IMG/VR virus record: IMGVR_UViG_3300030101_002179 | Span: 1 to 31,108 of that record | From: a virus | DNA length: 31,108 nt | Strand: one strand, 5' to 3' | Shown: positions 9,746 through 23,459 of the stretch, one piece after another | How the letters are laid out: every line of letters starts with the position of its first letter | How positions within the stretch are numbered: the stretch's first letter is position 1 | Notes under the pieces: model-generated | Seen by the model: the letters and a program-made list of their open reading frames with translations, nothing else | The model's database searches: none | What the model was told of the DNA's origin: nothing | Program-made: the position numbers and the translations under genes

Positions 9746-9865
9746 TTTTTTTTGTATATTAGATATGCTTTTTATGAACGACTAAATTTAAAAAGTCACA
9801 AAGAGGGTTTTGATTCCTTCGGGTTAGGAATTTGTTAGCAAATTCTAGTACATATCGAAATTAAA
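9746..9865 (+). ncRNA. Structured RNA candidate 3' of tail-tube gene
   Basis: This stretch has no gene. GATATG (9762-9767) can pair with CATATC (9851-9856), closing a junction holding GACT/AGTC (9780-9783 with 9794-9797), ATTCCT/AGGAAT (9813-9818 with 9826-9831) and AATTTG/CAAATT (9829-9834 with 9839-9844); the last two share bases, so they compete or pair in part. A terminator follows. It may be a structured 3' untranslated region or a separate small RNA. It does not fit a tRNA. Confidence 0.4.
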
Positions 9866-9893
9866 GGGTAGCAGAGATGTTACCCTTTTTTTT
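9866..9893 (+). terminator. Intrinsic terminator after tail-tube gene
   Basis: GGGTAGCA (9866-9873) pairs with TGTTACCC (9878-9885) around a GAGA loop, followed by eight T residues; AAA before and TTT after extend the stem, so it may act in both directions. Confidence 0.85.
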
Positions 9894-9923
9894 AAAAAAG
9901 ATAAAAATTTTTAATAAAATATT

Positions 9924-9953
9924 TTTTTATTAACAAAATTTATTATATATTTA
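9924..9953 (+). promoter_or_regulatory. Host-type promoter candidate for intergenic RNA
   Basis: TATATTTA at 9946-9953 matches seven of eight positions of the Bacteroidetes -7 box TAnnTTTG. Upstream, ATTAACA at 9929-9935 and the flanking sequence are almost identical to the promoter candidate at 20680-20709. No gene starts for 360 bases downstream, so it most likely drives the RNA at about 9960-10278. Confidence 0.5.
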
Positions 9954-9959
9954 CATCAT

Positions 9960-10278
9960 AAAACAAAACCTAATTAGGTTTAGTTCTTTAAAATATTGAA
10001 AGTCTTAAAAAGCAAGGTAAAGTATTTGCAACTTTGGTTACTAGGTTGTAAAGGTCAAAATAAAGCAGATATGCTTTTCCTAAAGTTTCAAGCTAATAAG
10101 CAGATATGCTTAAATCTACGGATGATATTAGTGTTCCTTTAGGGCAACCAATTTAAACAGATAAGTCTTATAAACTTATTTGGCAAATATAATTCCTGAT
10201 AGGTGGGTGTGCTATCTTCTAATATGCTATAAGCACCCAAGCATAGAACCCTTACAGAAATGTAGGGGTTTTTTTTTT
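9960..10278 (+). ncRNA. Candidate ~320-nt structured noncoding RNA
   Basis: A stretch with no convincing gene, with a promoter candidate before it and a clear terminator at its end. It holds a perfect 16-base palindrome AAACCTAATTAGGTTT (9966-9981), a boxA-like GTTCTTTA (9983-9990), a possible TGCAAC/GTTGTA stem near 10027-10050, two copies of AAGCAGATATGCTT (10063-10076 and 10098-10111) each folding into a stem with a GATA loop, a stem ATAAGT/ACTTAT near 10161-10180, and a GGGTG/CACCC stem (10205-10209 with 10234-10238). A frame opening at 10180 and joining the next gene in frame is judged an artefact because it crosses the terminator. I do not recognise the RNA family; its function is unknown. 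Confidence 0.55.
10247..10278 (+). terminator. Intrinsic terminator ending intergenic RNA
   Basis: AACCCTTACA (10247-10256) pairs over ten positions with TGTAGGGGTT (10261-10270), one of them a G-T pair, around a GAAA tetraloop, and runs into a tract of ten T residues (10269-10278). It separates the RNA region from the portal operon. Confidence 0.92.
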
Positions 10279-10283
10279 ACATA

Positions 10284-10314
10284 CAAATATCGTAAATTGT
10301 TACGTTATATAATT
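10284..10314 (+). promoter_or_regulatory. Shared late-module box, copy C (CAA-N16-CGTTATAT)
   Basis: CAA at 10284-10286, 16 bases, CGTTATAT at 10303-10310, then ATG at 10315, 12 bases after the C. It lies just after a strong terminator, where a new promoter is needed for the portal operon; this is the best single argument that the box is a promoter and not a translational signal. Confidence 0.58.
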
Positions 10315-16243: not shown

Positions 16244-16651
16244 ATGAGTAAGCCACTAAAAAAAACAAAAGTAGGTAAATTTTTACTTGAAAAAGTACCA
16301 AATGTAATAGGTGGTTTGTTGGATAGTACACCTGCAGGTAGTGTAATTAAAACACTTATAGGTGGGTCTGATATGTCTGATGCAGACAAAGAAATTGCCC
16401 TTAAAAAACTTGACCAAGAAATACACGAGTTTGATGGCATTACACAAAGGTGGGTGGCAGACTCAAAATCTAGTTGGTTAGCCCAAAATGTACGCCCATT
16501 AACTTTAACCTTTTTAACAGTAGCTTTTGTAATAGGTTGGTATATGCAAATAGAACAATTAGAGGTAGTTAAAGAATTACTATGGGTTGTTTTTGCAGGT
16601 TACTTTGGTGGTAGAACTTATGAAAAAGTAAAAGGCAAAAGTAATGGCTAG
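16244..16651 (+). CDS. Holin of the 3-TM type
   Basis: A 135-residue protein resembling the family 'holin of 3TMs' (PF11351). Residues 1-60 form an amphipathic basic/Gly region (LEKVPNVIGGLLDSTPAGSV); the conserved block RWVADSKSSWLAQNVRPLTL lies near residues 65-85; two clear hydrophobic segments follow (about 85-100 and 108-122), with an earlier weak one, and a basic tail. The protein should permeabilise the inner membrane to let the endolysin out. Its place right after the endolysin agrees. Confidence 0.82.
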   Translation: MSKPLKKTKVGKFLLEKVPNVIGGLLDSTPAGSVIKTLIGGSDMSDADKEIALKKLDQEIHEFDGITQRWVADSKSSWLAQNVRPLTLTFLTVAFVIGWYMQIEQLEVVKELLWVVFAGYFGGRTYEKVKGKSNG

Positions 16652-16778
16652 AAAAATTGTATCTAAATTTATAGAAAAACCAAGAGTAAAAAGAAAGGGC
16701 AGACATTCTAAAAGTGCTAGTAATCTAAAGTCTAGTAAACTATACAAAAAACCTTACAACAGGCAAGGAAAAAAATAA
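16644..16778 (+). CDS. Small basic conserved phage protein (KRKGRHSK type)
   Basis: A 44-residue basic protein starting eight bases before the holin stop. The pattern KRKGRHSKSASNLKSSKLYK followed by KPYNRQG matches a very short protein family I have seen in marine tailed phages of several types, always without known function. Nearly a third of residues are Lys or Arg, so nucleic-acid binding is possible. Confidence 0.65.
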   Translation: MARKIVSKFIEKPRVKRKGRHSKSASNLKSSKLYKKPYNRQGKK

Positions 16779-16809
16779 ATTTGTTTTTTTAAAAAATAAT
16801 CTTATATTA

Positions 16810-16849
16810 TATAATACAGTATTATAATACAGTAGTATAATACAGTATA
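16810..16849. repeat. Three 13-bp direct repeats with palindromic core (origin or operator candidate)
   Basis: Head-to-tail copies ATAATACAGTATT, ATAATACAGTAGT and ATAATACAGTATA occupy 16811-16823, 16824-16836 and 16837-16849. The first lies in a perfect 17-base palindrome TATAATACAGTATTATA (16810-16826). A partial fourth copy, ATAATACTATA, is at 16865-16875. The array is in the only sizeable gene-free gap (16779-16883) between lysis and replication genes. It could be iterons of a replication origin or stacked operators. Confidence 0.7.
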
Positions 16850-16883
16850 TATAAAACTAAATATATAATACTATAGGGTGTTT

Positions 16884-16991
16884 ATGGGTGCTTTTTATTT
16901 TATATGTGGTATCTTATTTTGGGAGTTTGTAAGAACTATTGTTATATTTATATATTTAAACATTAAAAAATGGATAAAAGACCAACAATAA
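16884..16991 (+). CDS. Small hydrophobic protein
   Basis: A 35-residue frame just after the repeat array. It is a single hydrophobic helix (FICGILFWEFVRTIVIFIYL) with a basic tail, so likely a membrane peptide. It overlaps the zinc-finger gene by 22 bases. Function unknown; coding status is moderate. Confidence 0.4.
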   Translation: MGAFYFICGILFWEFVRTIVIFIYLNIKKWIKDQQ

Positions 16992-17101
16992 AATGTAGTT
17001 TGTGTAATAGCTATTTTGTTGAGGGTAGAGAATATAGAGAACACTGGGAAAAAGAACACCTAGAAGAATACCTTAAATTAATAAATTATAAAGATTTATA
17101 A
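16970..17101 (+). CDS. C2H2 zinc-finger miniprotein
   Basis: A 43-residue protein that is essentially one zinc finger: Cys9-x2-Cys12-x12-His25-x4-His30, the classical C2H2 spacing, with the aromatic at position 16 and basic residues in the helix. It is followed closely by the NinG-like gene, whose ATG is three bases after the stop. C2H2 fingers are uncommon in bacteria and their phages. A DNA-binding regulatory role near the repeat array is an inference. Confidence 0.65.
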   Translation: MDKRPTIKCSLCNSYFVEGREYREHWEKEHLEEYLKLINYKDL

Positions 17102-17103
17102 TT

Positions 17104-17484
17104 ATGCCTAAATCAAGAAAGGCTATAGTAAAAGAACTTGATAGGGTTTTTAGTTTAATGGTTAGATACAGCAATAGCAAAAATGGATATTGCCAGTGTA
17201 TTACTTGTGGTAGAAAGTACCCTATTAAACAAATACAGTGTGGTCATTTTATGTCAAGAAAAAATTATAGCACAAGGTGGGAATTACAAAATGTAGCCCC
17301 CCAATGCTATGGCTGTAATGTGATGCAATCAGGTAGACAATATGAGTTTGCAAAACAAATAGGTGAGAAAAAAGCACAAAAAATGTTACAGCTTTCTAAA
17401 CAAATAGTAAAATTTAGTAATCAAGATTTATTAGACAAGATAGATGAATATAAAAAAATTATTGCTATATTTGATTCTAAGTAA
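17104..17484 (+). CDS. NinG/Rap-like recombination protein
   Basis: A 126-residue protein resembling lambda NinG (Rap), a structure-specific endonuclease acting on recombination intermediates. Paired metal ligands are visible: Cys32-x2-Cys35 (CITCGRKYP), Cys46 and His48 (QCGHFMSRKN), and Cys68-x2-Cys71 (QCYGCNVMQSG). The RWELQNVAPQC segment is typical. It is shorter than lambda NinG (about 200 residues) and lacks an extra N-terminal region. It is the last gene before a strong terminator, so it probably belongs to the transcript coming from the lysis side. Confidence 0.82.
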   Translation: MPKSRKAIVKELDRVFSLMVRYSNSKNGYCQCITCGRKYPIKQIQCGHFMSRKNYSTRWELQNVAPQCYGCNVMQSGRQYEFAKQIGEKKAQKMLQLSKQIVKFSNQDLLDKIDEYKKIIAIFDSK

Positions 17485-17550
17485 CTTTTTTTCATTTATT
17501 TTGAATAATTGATATTTTATTTTAGATTTGTTTTATAGTTAGATAGTTAA

Positions 17551-17579
17551 GGGGGTTTATTATTTACCCCCTTTTTTTT
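17551..17579 (+). terminator. Intrinsic terminator after NinG-like gene
   Basis: GGGGGT (17551-17556) pairs with ACCCCC (17566-17571) around a nine-base A/T loop, followed by eight T residues. It closes the late/lysis transcript just before the early promoter. Confidence 0.88.
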
Positions 17580-18362: not shown

Positions 18363-19265
18363 ATGTTAATTAACTTTGATAAGCATTTAAAGAAAATCAA
18401 AGATGTAAGAAATGGTGTGATAAAAGAGGGTTTGACATTAGATATTGATAACCTTGATGAACATATAAGGTTTAAAAGACAATTTAATGTTATTCTTGGA
18501 CACGCGAATGTAGGCAAAACATCTATTATACTTTACTTAATGCTATTATATACTATTAAACATAAATTAAAATGGCTTGTGTTTAGTGCTGAAAATGATG
18601 CTTATACACTTATAAAAAAACTTATTGAATTTATGTGTGGTAAAGTGATACAGCAAATAAATGAAACAGTATTTTTAGATAAAGCATATTACATAGATAA
18701 ACATTTTCAGTTTATAGACTGTAGTAAAATATATGACTACAAAGAATTACTAGACTTTGCCACAAAAACAAAACAAGATTTTAACTTTGATGGCTTTTTA
18801 ATTGACCCTTATAATTCACTAAAAGTAAATAAGGCTTTATTAGTTGGCAATAAACACGAATATGATTATCAAGTTTGTAGTGAATTTAGAATATTTACCA
18901 AACAGCATAATTGTGCAATATGGTTAAATACACACGCTAATACAGAAGCCCTTAGAAAAATACACCCAATGGCACACGATTATGCAGGGTTACCTATACC
19001 ACCTATGGCGGCAGATGTTGAGGGTGGTGGTAAGTTTGTTAATAGGGCGGATGATTTTTGGGTATTGCATCGCTATATACAACATCCAAGCGAGTGGATG
19101 TATTCACACTTACACATTAGAAAGGTAAAGGATGTGGACACTGGCGGTAGACCTAGCCCAATAGACAACCCTTTAAAATTTAAATCAGTAAAAAATAATG
19201 TAGGTTTTGAAATTAATGGTAAAAATTATGTACCTTTAATTGACAAACAGACATTACCATTTTGA
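18363..19265 (+). CDS. RecA-fold replicative helicase/ATPase (DnaB- or RepA-like)
   Basis: A 300-residue ATPase. Walker A GHANVGKTS spans 46-54; Walker B ends at Asp148 (DGFLIDPYN); a later polar motif (AIWLNTHANTEAL, about 183-195) matches the third conserved motif of RecA/DnaB-family enzymes, and an arginine-rich region with RADDFWVLHRY follows. It lacks the N-terminal primase-interacting domain of full DnaB, so it is a compact core helicase or loader-like ATPase. It lies in the replication operon after the ssDNA-binding candidates. No primase domain is fused to it. Confidence 0.8.
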   Translation: MLINFDKHLKKIKDVRNGVIKEGLTLDIDNLDEHIRFKRQFNVILGHANVGKTSIILYLMLLYTIKHKLKWLVFSAENDAYTLIKKLIEFMCGKVIQQINETVFLDKAYYIDKHFQFIDCSKIYDYKELLDFATKTKQDFNFDGFLIDPYNSLKVNKALLVGNKHEYDYQVCSEFRIFTKQHNCAIWLNTHANTEALRKIHPMAHDYAGLPIPPMAADVEGGGKFVNRADDFWVLHRYIQHPSEWMYSHLHIRKVKDVDTGGRPSPIDNPLKFKSVKNNVGFEINGKNYVPLIDKQTLPF

Positions 19266-19441
19266 AGCATAAAATAAATTTCACATTTATACCTATTTAT
19301 GGTATTGCATTTGGCATAACTTATTACAACCCTAACTTAGAACCTGACCAGTTATTTAAAGTAGACCCTGAAGATTATTACGAGCAAGTATCAATAATGT
19401 TTTTATGTTTTGGTGTACATATAACTGTATGGAAAGAATAA
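19262..19441 (+). CDS. Small protein with TTG start between helicase and sigma factor
   Basis: A 59-residue frame fills the 176-base gap. It can start at TTG 19262, overlapping the helicase stop by four bases, and its stop overlaps the sigma factor ATG (TAATG). The product has a hydrophobic N-terminus (FTFIPIYGIAFGITYY), an acidic middle (DPEDYYEQ) and a hydrophobic end. No ATG is available at the upstream end, so the start is tentative. Function unknown. Confidence 0.5.
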   Translation: MKHKINFTFIPIYGIAFGITYYNPNLEPDQLFKVDPEDYYEQVSIMFLCFGVHITVWKE

Positions 19442-19908
19442 TGCAATTACTATATAAAGACCATAATAAATGGATTGCTATAGTAAAAAGTTTTGGGTGC
19501 AATAATGATACAGCTAAGGATATTGTGGCTGAAATGTATGTGAAAATAAATAGGGCTGTAGAAAGAGGTCTAAATTTAATGTTTGATGAAAATTCAATAA
19601 ATTATTATTATGTATTTAGAACACTTAGCAGTTTGTTTATAGATTTGAAACGTAAAGAAAAAAAAATAGAATTGTTAAACATAGATGATGTGCAAGTAGG
19701 AAGCACAAACATAAACCCTGATTATGATGCTAATTATGAAATAGTTAAAAAAGGTTTAGATAAATTGTATTGGTATGATAAAAAAGTATATGAGATTATT
19801 GAGGGGGGTACAAGTATTGCAGAACTAAGTAAAAAAACTAAAATATCATATTATAGTTTATATAATACCTATAAAAAAGTAAAGAAATATTTAAAAAAAT
19901 TATTATGA
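19441..19908 (+). CDS. ECF-like RNA polymerase sigma factor
   Basis: A 155-residue protein resembling small sigma-70-family factors. Residues about 1-85 form the region 2 part (NNDTAKDIVAEMYVKINRAV, then YYVFRTLSSLFIDLKRKEKK, which matches core-binding and -10 recognition helices). Residues about 105-155 form region 4 with a helix-turn-helix (TSIAELSKKTKISYYSLYNT) ending in a basic helix. ATG 19441 is chosen because it overlaps the previous stop; upstream in-frame starts would run into that gene. It likely redirects host RNA polymerase to phage promoters; the CGTTATAT boxes are candidate targets. Confidence 0.75.
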   Translation: MQLLYKDHNKWIAIVKSFGCNNDTAKDIVAEMYVKINRAVERGLNLMFDENSINYYYVFRTLSSLFIDLKRKEKKIELLNIDDVQVGSTNINPDYDANYEIVKKGLDKLYWYDKKVYEIIEGGTSIAELSKKTKISYYSLYNTYKKVKKYLKKLL

Positions 19909-20084
19909 TTTTATTAGGGGATTTAGTTGAAAAATTTACTAAGGCAACTGGTATAAAATGGCTGACTGAATTCGTTATAATAAAGTTATTGGGTTTTAAA
20001 ACTTGTAATTGTGATAAAAGAAAATTAAAATTAAACAACTTTAGCAAAAATTTTACAAATGAAAAAAATAAGGATGACAAATGA
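19905..20084 (+). CDS. Small phage protein with CxC motif
   Basis: A 59-residue frame with ATGA overlap with the sigma gene. It begins MILLGDLVEKFTKATGIKWL and carries CNCDKRKLKLN, a pattern known to me from short phage proteins (GD...TGIK...CGCxxRK) of unknown function. It overlaps the next gene by 26 bases. A membrane or metal-binding role cannot be decided. Confidence 0.6.
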   Translation: MILLGDLVEKFTKATGIKWLTEFVIIKLLGFKTCNCDKRKLKLNNFSKNFTNEKNKDDK

Positions 20085-20289
20085 TGATGTAAACAAATGG
20101 CTTAATTATAAAAACAATTATAAAGTACAACCCACTAATGACCAAATTGATTTAATAGTTCAATTACACGCCAAATATTTTAATCATAATGAATATTACC
20201 CTTGTACCTGTTCACCTAAAACTTGGAATCAGTGGATAGCACAATTAGATACAGTCTATAATGAAACTAGAAACAGTACACAAACTTGA
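20059..20289 (+). CDS. Unknown small protein with PCTCSPKTW motif
   Basis: A 76-residue protein; a second in-frame ATG lies at 20074 and could be the true start, reducing overlap with the upstream gene. The C-terminal half carries YYPCTCSPKTWNQWIAQLD, a motif I have seen in small proteins of Bacteroidetes phages without function. Its end overlaps the nuclease-like gene by 29 bases, in a different frame. Confidence 0.6.
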   Translation: MKKIRMTNDDVNKWLNYKNNYKVQPTNDQIDLIVQLHAKYFNHNEYYPCTCSPKTWNQWIAQLDTVYNETRNSTQT

Positions 20290-20671
20290 AAAAGCAATAA
20301 TTCTAGCTTTAAATTTAGATGGTTGGGATTTAACTTGGACTGGTGTGAAATTTGAACATTATGATGCAGTTGGTACTACACCAAAAGGTAAAGATTGTGT
20401 TATTGAATTTAAATTTAGAAAGACATACTATGAAACAAAGATACTTGAAAAATACAAATATGATGAACTGATGAATATGCCCTATGATTTAGTAAAGCTG
20501 TATTCAGTTCACGACCCTAAAGGCAGTTACTTATATTGGCTAAATGACCTAGATGTAGGTAAGCTAACACAAATGTATTTACCTGATACAACAATGTGGA
20601 CCACTAAAAAAATAAACAAGGAAGTTTATTTACTTACAGAAGAACAAGCAGTAGTATTTAATAAAAGTTAA
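20261..20671 (+). CDS. PD-(D/E)XK nuclease-like protein
   Basis: A 136-residue protein with the layout of small PD-(D/E)XK nucleases: an N-terminal helix with Glu4 and Glu10, Asp35 in HYDAVGT, and Glu49-x-Lys51 in CVIEFKFRKTYYETK, then a helix and a beta-rich C-terminus (YLYWLNDLDVG). Such proteins resolve branched DNA or degrade DNA in phage replication; which applies is unknown. It is the last gene before a promoter candidate at 20680. Confidence 0.62.
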   Translation: MKLETVHKLEKAIILALNLDGWDLTWTGVKFEHYDAVGTTPKGKDCVIEFKFRKTYYETKILEKYKYDELMNMPYDLVKLYSVHDPKGSYLYWLNDLDVGKLTQMYLPDTTMWTTKKINKEVYLLTEEQAVVFNKS

Positions 20672-20679
20672 TAAATATT

Positions 20680-20709
20680 TTTTTTATTAACAATTAATTT
20701 ATATATTTG
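20680..20709 (+). promoter_or_regulatory. Host-type promoter candidate (ATTAACA ... TATATTTG)
   Basis: TATATTTG at 20702-20709 is a perfect -7 box. The -33 position reads TTTT, not TTTG, but ATTAACA (20686-20692) and flanks are shared with the promoter at 9924-9953. It would start the operon of small genes from 20736, with a leader of about 20 bases. Confidence 0.6.
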
Positions 20710-20735
20710 TATCACTAATATATAAAATAGATAAT

Positions 20736-20882
20736 ATGAAAACTAAAGAACAAATAGCAGAACAGATTTTAGAAAGTAGAGTTTTTTTGCAAAGACTAAA
20801 CAAAACAGGTTTTAGTAAAGCTGTACCAGTTGACTTGTTTGACAATATAATTATTAACCAATACAAAAAAAATGAACTATAA
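20736..20882 (+). CDS. Unknown 48-residue protein
   Basis: First frame after the promoter. The product is helical and charged (MKTKEQIAEQILESRVFLQR) with an NIIINQYKKNEL end. It overlaps the next gene by 11 bases. No family recognised. Confidence 0.55.
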   Translation: MKTKEQIAEQILESRVFLQRLNKTGFSKAVPVDLFDNIIINQYKKNEL

Positions 20883-22304: not shown

Positions 22305-23020
22305 TGATATTACTCATTGATGCAGATTCTTTAATATTTGCAAGTTGCTATAAACCTAAAGATAAAATTTTAAATAGCATATATTATAAACGTATTGATA
22401 AATGTAAGGATAAATTTGATGGTCAGTTAATAAATATAGTTACAGACCTTGAACAAATGTATGATATAAAAGAAGTTAGGATATTTTCAGGTAGGTCAAA
22501 AAACAACTTTAGAAAATTATTAAGTAAAACTTATAAAGCAAATAGAACATCAGAAAAACCACCAATGTTGGATAAAATGCATCAGTATGTTAAAGAACAT
22601 TATGAAGCAATACAAAGTTGTGGTCACGAAACTGATGATGCAGTTGCTAAATATTGGTATGAAATACAAAAAGTTGTAGGCAGGGATAATGTAATTATAG
22701 TAAGTATTGATAAAGACTATATGCAGTTTCCTGCACTTATATATAATTACCACCCTAAACACAAAAAAATATATAACCTAAGTGAACAAGATGCTATGTA
22801 TAACTTTTATGAACAAATGATTATAGGTGATACAGCTGATAATGTTAATTATTTTAAAGGCTTAGGTAAAGCATTTGCTAAAAAATACCTACAAGGGTGT
22901 GATACTAAATATAAATATACTAAAAAGTTATATGAATTATTTAAAATGAGGTATAAGCAAAAGGCAAAATTAAGATATATAGAATGTTATAATTTATTAA
23001 AACTTAGAACTGATGTCTAA
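22304..23020 (+). CDS. 5'-3' exonuclease / flap endonuclease
   Basis: A 238-residue PIN/FEN-type nuclease that removes RNA primers and flaps. Metal-binding acidic motifs are visible in order: MILLIDADSLIF (Asp6, Asp8), RKLLSKTYKANR, GHETDDAVAKYWY, VSIDKDYMQFP and GDTADNVNYFKGLGKAFAKK with the helix-hairpin-helix-like turn. It lacks a fused polymerase domain, as in T5 or T7 type phage exonucleases. With no phage polymerase present it probably works with host Pol I or the host replisome. Its end overlaps the DnaA-like gene by eight bases. Confidence 0.88.
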   Translation: MILLIDADSLIFASCYKPKDKILNSIYYKRIDKCKDKFDGQLINIVTDLEQMYDIKEVRIFSGRSKNNFRKLLSKTYKANRTSEKPPMLDKMHQYVKEHYEAIQSCGHETDDAVAKYWYEIQKVVGRDNVIIVSIDKDYMQFPALIYNYHPKHKKIYNLSEQDAMYNFYEQMIIGDTADNVNYFKGLGKAFAKKYLQGCDTKYKYTKKLYELFKMRYKQKAKLRYIECYNLLKLRTDV

Positions 23021-23459
23021 AATAACTAAGAAAAAATTTGAAGAACTATCAAGCAAAATAAATGAATTGTTTGATTTAAATATGTTTAAAAATACTAGAA
23101 AGCTAGAATATGTTTTAGCAAGGTGTTTATTAGCACACACAATAAAACATAAATACAATAAAACAACACTACAATATATAGCTAATATGTATGAACAAAA
23201 TGGTAAATCAAGTGACCACTCTACAATACTACATAATATTAGAACTTGGGCTAGGTTTATAGATGTTAAAACAGGTGTAAAAATACAAGCACAAAGAGAA
23301 TTACTTAGAGGTAATACAGTAGATTATATTATGAATATAATAGACCCAAAAAGCACAATACAACAAAAGAAAGCTAAACTTAAACAAGACATAGATAATT
23401 TTAATAAACATCAAGTAGCATTTATTGAGCCTTGTTTAGAAAATGCAAAAAGGATATGA
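23013..23459 (+). CDS. DnaA domain-IV-like DNA-binding protein
   Basis: A 148-residue protein whose middle (about 28-95) resembles the C-terminal DNA-binding domain of DnaA: a helix LEYVLARCLLAHTIKHKYN, then YIANMYEQNG and the signature-like SSDHSTILHNIRTW (66-79), close to the DnaA box-recognition motif DHSTVLHA. The AAA+ part of DnaA is absent. The C-terminal third is a Lys/Gln-rich helix. It may bind DnaA-box-like sites at the phage origin or occupy host sites. It lies between exonuclease and HNH genes. Confidence 0.7.
   Translation: MSKITKKKFEELSSKINELFDLNMFKNTRKLEYVLARCLLAHTIKHKYNKTTLQYIANMYEQNGKSSDHSTILHNIRTWARFIDVKTGVKIQAQRELLRGNTVDYIMNIIDPKSTIQQKKAKLKQDIDNFNKHQVAFIEPCLENAKRI

Follow-up and report, generated by a model that had tools for sequence, protein, structure and literature searches.

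Iteron-like arrays and AT-rich phage origins are already well known. Bacterial oriC combines AT-rich 13-mers with DnaA boxes. The OL and OR repressor operators of lambda are 17-bp dyads, and odd-centred dyads are found in many operators bound by dimeric proteins. To our knowledge, few replication starts or early switches have been mapped in Bacteroidota phages. The origin of lambdoid phages consists of iterons for the O protein and an AT-rich tract, with four repeats in lambda and six in Stx phages (PMC7466680). For Bacteroidota, a sigma-ABfr promoter consensus of TTTG/TAHHTTTG has been described, and the flavobacterial RNA polymerase uses TTTG/TANNTTTG and not TATAAT (PMC6847099).

The window analysed here, a stretch of 31,108 nucleotides, covers an entire virus record, and its genes all lie on one strand. 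The ends of the record overlap by ~77 bases, which identifies it as a near-complete phage genome in circularly permuted form. Relatives of its terminase in a bacterial genome collection are few and come mostly from Flavobacteriaceae MAGs, which, together with the Bacteroidota-type promoters visible in the sequence, makes a flavobacterium the most likely host. A search for cultured relatives gave no DNA match among phage records, and the relatives at the protein level are distant.

The locus is marked on its left by the gene for a small basic protein of 44 aa (16,644-16,778, plus strand, as are all genes below) and on its right by that for a NinG-like nuclease (17,104-17,484). The first gene past the array encodes a predicted membrane peptide of 35 aa (MGAFYFICGILFWEF...; 16,884-16,991), which begins 8 bp past the last unit and is kept in all relatives carrying the array. 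It is followed by a gene for a 43-aa protein with one C2H2-like finger, whose Pfam match lies below the curated cut-off (16,970-17,101). A preliminary description of the locus had placed the array next to this C2H2 gene; the gene is indeed present, but the nearest neighbour is the membrane peptide. Downstream of NinG are an intrinsic terminator on the plus strand (AGGGGG...CCCCCT and a T run; 17,549-17,575), the gene for a DnaB/primase-helicase-like helicase (18,363-19,265) and that for a DnaA domain IV-type DNA-binding protein with no AAA+ part (23,013-23,459). The array lies upstream of the replication genes, as had been described. None of the genes that were read and scanned appeared to encode a DNA polymerase. 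The product of 19,405-19,908 resembles a sigma factor, with weak Sigma70_r2 and HTH matches; it was found in 16 of the 16 genomes compared and is possibly a phage sigma factor. Elsewhere, the longest non-coding gap of the window (9746-10,314, ~570 nt) lies ahead of a late gene cluster. It holds a promoter-like TATATTT, two exact copies of AAGCAGATATGCTT 35 bp apart and hairpins, and looks like a long leader.

The array itself contains three exact copies of TATAATACAGTA, 13 bp apart, within 16,810-16,848. These units occupy 16,810-16,821, 16,823-16,834 and 16,836-16,847 on the plus strand, and ATAATACAGTA recurs at 16,811, 16,824 and 16,837 with a spacing of exactly 13 bp. The 31,108-base record holds no further exact copy of TATAATACAGTA, making the array a single site. 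Two degenerate units, read from the sequence and aligned with relatives, follow on the same strand: TATAAAACTAAA (16,850-16,861) and TATAATACTATA (16,864-16,875), which start 14 bp apart. In total, the array comprises five units with a spacing of 13-14 bp, three exact and two degenerate, and thus has the regularly spaced direct repeats of an iteron-type origin. A perfect 17-bp odd-centred dyad, TATAATAC-A-GTATTATA (16,810-16,826), spans the junction of units 1 and 2. The interval 16,779-16,883 is 86% AT, compared with 70% for the record, and the 100 bp at 16,771-16,870, with 90% AT, are the most AT-rich of the record jointly with 20,657-20,756. An AT-rich region of the kind that is unwound at iteron-type origins is therefore present at the array. 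The three in-phase repeats, the palindrome and the very AT-rich DNA of the preliminary description were all recovered.

The TRF score of the array, 74, is the highest in the window. It was reached by one of 100 whole-window Markov-1 shuffles and by 30 of 2000 local shuffles (1.5%), so that the shuffles by themselves place the array only moderately beyond chance. The secondary structure of the array strand was ordinary (z -0.83), and no known RNA families were matched at the array. The array was nevertheless confirmed as a genuine feature, with its conservation in relatives as the convincing part.

The locus is common to six IMG/VR contigs (L001-L006). The preliminary description had named the repeat number in relatives as a check: L001 carries three exact units, as in the window, while L003-L006 carry only two, followed by TATAATACTATA and TATAAAACTATA, with unit 3 absent or diverged. 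The contig of L002 (G002) starts within the array; strains with differing unit numbers could have caused the assembly to break there. The 25-bp two-unit core is identical between the window and G003 or G005, whereas the fourfold-degenerate sites of neighbouring genes are only 64-65% identical in these comparisons. The chance of such core identity is P ~2e-5, an optimistic value since the core was picked after the data were seen. Given this identity next to diverged fourfold-degenerate sites, the array is clearly maintained by purifying selection. Among viral contigs, the array was found in this context only in the close clade, in a comparison built on metagenomic contigs and with slot boundaries that depend on automatic gene calls. 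An ~80-aa gene located directly before NinG in six of six close relatives (L001 711-923) is missing from the window between 17,101 and 17,104.

The array sits in a slot of conserved position, with the lysis genes on one side and NinG on the other. Synteny extends over a large family, with the order peptidase, holin, small basic protein, slot, (80-aa gene), NinG, helicase, sigma-like gene, DnaA-like gene and terminase. A stretch of 80 bp with at least 85% AT was present in 26 of 44 non-redundant slots, 14 of which also showed a repeat excess beyond composition. The AT-rich slots of relatives mostly contain unrelated, lineage-specific repeats. Those of other lineages, AT-rich and direct or dyad, include TATATATTAGYACTTATA (G013), TAGCTACTCTTAGAGTAGCTA-like repeats (G012, L057, L059) and TTAGTTACTAATTAG (L097), and the tracts of G014, G016, L286 and L292 are nearly pure A/T. 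In six of eight array-type genomes, no other non-coding gap is as dense in repeats as the slot, and in six of eight the slot has the highest AT content, alone or tied, among the stretches examined. In the sister clade, the slot holds a plain Bacteroidota promoter or other sequence and no array; the promoter reads TTTAC-N18/19-TACCTTTG, then GTGGGTTAGTGG. The helicase tree splits into two groups: the array-type genomes, which enclose a single small-RNA-type genome, and the promoter-type genomes. The order of tract and promoter differs among lineages, two of which have the tract upstream of the promoter. A 76-aa protein encoded at 20,059-20,289, 95-97% identical within the clade, is present in all eight array-type genomes and in G037 and in none of the seven promoter-type genomes, a distribution that may reflect phylogeny only.

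Structured RNAs were found in the slot of some relatives. In L324, L330 and L344, a structured non-coding RNA of ~290 nt occupies the slot after the holin gene, with 75 predicted pairs and 98% of cells paired across the three sequences; similar elements are present in L063 and L067-L069, and a TATATTTG-type promoter lies ahead of the RNA in most cases. The slot elements of L063, L065, L069 and L075 had no match in Rfam. A second small RNA-like element in the slot, conserved and ~100 nt long, has a core of ACCTAATAAA..TTGGA behind TATATATTTG and a T-rich end. It lies on the plus strand in L316, L336, L341 and L345 and on the strand opposite to the genes in L016 and L262.

We infer, as a tentative preference held with somewhat less than even confidence, that the array is a cis-acting replication-start element. 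It would be this lineage's form of an element with a conserved position and a non-conserved sequence, sitting where the lysis genes give way to the replication/recombination half of the genome. The AT-rich tract would melt easily and the direct and dyad repeats would seat an initiator complex; the phage helicase (18,363) would then be loaded and the host polymerase would copy the genome. Candidates for the binder are the DnaA-like protein, other phage proteins and host factors. Points in favour of a replication start are the identity of the core, the AT and repeat content of the slot across the family, and the number of units, which differs between relatives. The phage also encodes a helicase as well as its DnaA domain IV-type protein but, among the genes covered, no DNA polymerase, and the near-twins G016 and G017 differ in slot tract and DnaA-like protein alike. 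Furthermore, an unwinding element accounts better than an operator for tracts of nearly pure A/T and for the variable arrangement of tract and promoter. Two points hold confidence down: the slot shows no coupling to the DnaA-like protein, as described below, and the sister clade keeps the helicase and the DnaA-like protein without a slot array. GC skew, proposed as a check in the preliminary description, showed no significant extremum at the array and neither supports nor refutes an origin there. The general class put forward in that description, an iteron-like origin or operator array, fits a conserved AT-rich, repeat-rich slot next to the replication module and under purifying selection; the two binders that it named are not supported.

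The first of these is the DnaA-like protein encoded at 23,013, which showed a profile match to E. coli DnaA domain IV (1j1v, E=1.7e-5). Its AlphaFold model has a pLDDT of 88, and the best Foldseek match is 3pvp, a DnaA DNA-binding domain, with a probability of 0.99 but E=0.21. The protein (148 aa) combines the domain IV fold with the HxTxxH signature of DnaA and has no match to the AAA+ ATPase domain. Judged by its sequence and predicted structure, it is a genuine DnaA domain IV-type protein. An iteron origin bound specifically by this protein, which is a version contained within the replication-start reading, is decidedly improbable all the same. The fold and signature argue for it, as do the near-twins G016 and G017, which differ both in the slot tract and in the DnaA-like protein and so leave room for a coupling of the two. 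However, the array contains no DnaA box (at most one mismatch), and thus no box cluster like that of an oriC-like origin, and box matches are depleted in the record (50 observed, 73.5 expected). By profile, the DnaA-like protein was found in 37 of 40 records irrespective of slot type; an earlier correlation of the gene's presence with arrays, seen with a single query, vanished with the profile. The DnaA-like proteins of the window and of phages with the same array core are 36-43% identical. Among the window, G003 and G005 they are 36-57% identical to each other and their recognition-helix motifs differ, while the array core is shared. In 48 non-independent genome pairs, slot similarity tracked helicase and NinG similarity and not DnaA-like similarity. 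With helicase distance allowed for, the partial rank correlation between slot and DnaA-like similarity was -0.44, and these pairs showed no co-variation of the two. The gene is also 6 kb away from the array. Iterons inside the DnaA-like gene, in the style of lambda O, were rejected as well, as weak 16-bp repeats occur in the window and L189 only and are absent in other lineages.

Ranking just below the replication-start reading, and nearly as likely, is a role of the array as an operator or a leader element. A candidate host-type promoter on the plus strand, CTTAC-N18-TAAATTTG (16,753-16,783), overlaps the end of the small basic gene. It would start a transcript at ~16,788 with the units in its first 90 nt, and a dimeric phage or host protein on the units would block or tune the membrane peptide-C2H2-NinG operon, timing the late/early transcription switch. 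The -7 element of the candidate fits TAHHTTTG, and the promoter is kept within the clade (L001, L003 and L005) although its bases vary (TAAATTTG or TAATTTTG). The clear Bacteroidota promoter in the slot of sister phages points the same way, as do the units themselves, which stop just short of the start codon and form 17-bp odd-centred dyads. On the other hand, the genome contains hardly more of these promoter matches than chance predicts (4 against 2.8 expected), and the -33 part of the candidate falls within coding sequence. An operator also sits poorly with the two lineages in which the tract precedes the promoter, with the pure A/T tracts of some slots and with an array that is a single site in the record. 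The early proteins scanned gave no match to repressor families, which an unrecognised repressor could have escaped. A version of the operator reading with the C2H2 protein as binder, the other proposal of the preliminary description, is very unlikely. Its gene belongs to the operon adjoining the array and accompanies the array in every contig that has it, but homologues that are 77-82% identical occur in another gene context in two phage contigs without the array (L252 and L253), and we rejected the protein as a dedicated regulator on this ground. With 43 aa, a single finger below the Pfam cut-off and, as read from the sequence, acidic and basic residues in about equal number, it also makes a poor candidate for the binder of the array.

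Two further explanations were considered. TATAAT is present in every exact unit, and unit 5 is followed by GGG, resembling part of a T7 promoter; the units as tandem sigma-70 -10 boxes or as a T7-like phage promoter are, however, scarcely credible. The polymerase of the probable flavobacterial host is of the type that does not use TATAAT (PMC6847099), sigma-70-like sites occur at chance level, and the genes read include none recognised as encoding a phage RNA polymerase. We rejected this identity on host type and site frequency. An AT-rich spacer without a sequence-specific role, where slippage makes short repeats in a gap and lineages drift, would account for the pure A/T tracts and the rapid turnover between lineages, and the TRF score is reached by some local shuffles. 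This too is improbable, given the identity of the core next to diverged fourfold-degenerate sites, the exact copies retained in relatives and the slot position retained across the family. What is unusual about the locus is a fixed slot with sequence turnover, replaced by small RNAs in some relatives. A broader proposal, which we regard as rather unlikely, is that a large flavobacterial phage family keeps its replication start (or an early master switch) at one fixed slot, with repeat sequences exchanged almost wholly from one lineage to the next, substitutes in the form of plain promoters or structured small RNAs, and a binder other than the phage's DnaA-like protein.

These results narrow the prediction to a single 70-bp target in this phage and offer, across the family, a defined slot where it can be tested. 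Two attractive assignments, to the DnaA-like protein and to the zinc-finger protein, lose support, while DnaA domain IV proteins emerge as a widespread family in phages.

Compared with known systems, the array resembles bacterial oriC in its three AT-rich 13-bp direct repeats and in the DnaA domain IV-type protein that the phage encodes. It differs in that no DnaA boxes lie in or near it, the phage protein has no AAA+ domain and the 13-mer sequences are not those of oriC. Like lambda OL/OR, it has a repeated odd-centred 17-bp dyad ahead of an operon. In contrast to them, the dyads overlap at 13-bp spacing and the units degrade into single half-like copies, and no repressor or integrase was recognised in this phage. 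The array itself contains no TANNTTTG element of the Bacteroidota sigma-ABfr promoters, although such promoters take the same place in sister phages and a candidate is found just upstream. Finally, whereas the iterons of lambda lie within the initiator gene, the units described here are intergenic, the only initiator-like gene is 6 kb away, and their binding by an initiator is putative. The lambdoid origin is similar in that it combines short repeats and AT-rich DNA within the replication half of the genome, and in that the repeat number varies between related phages.
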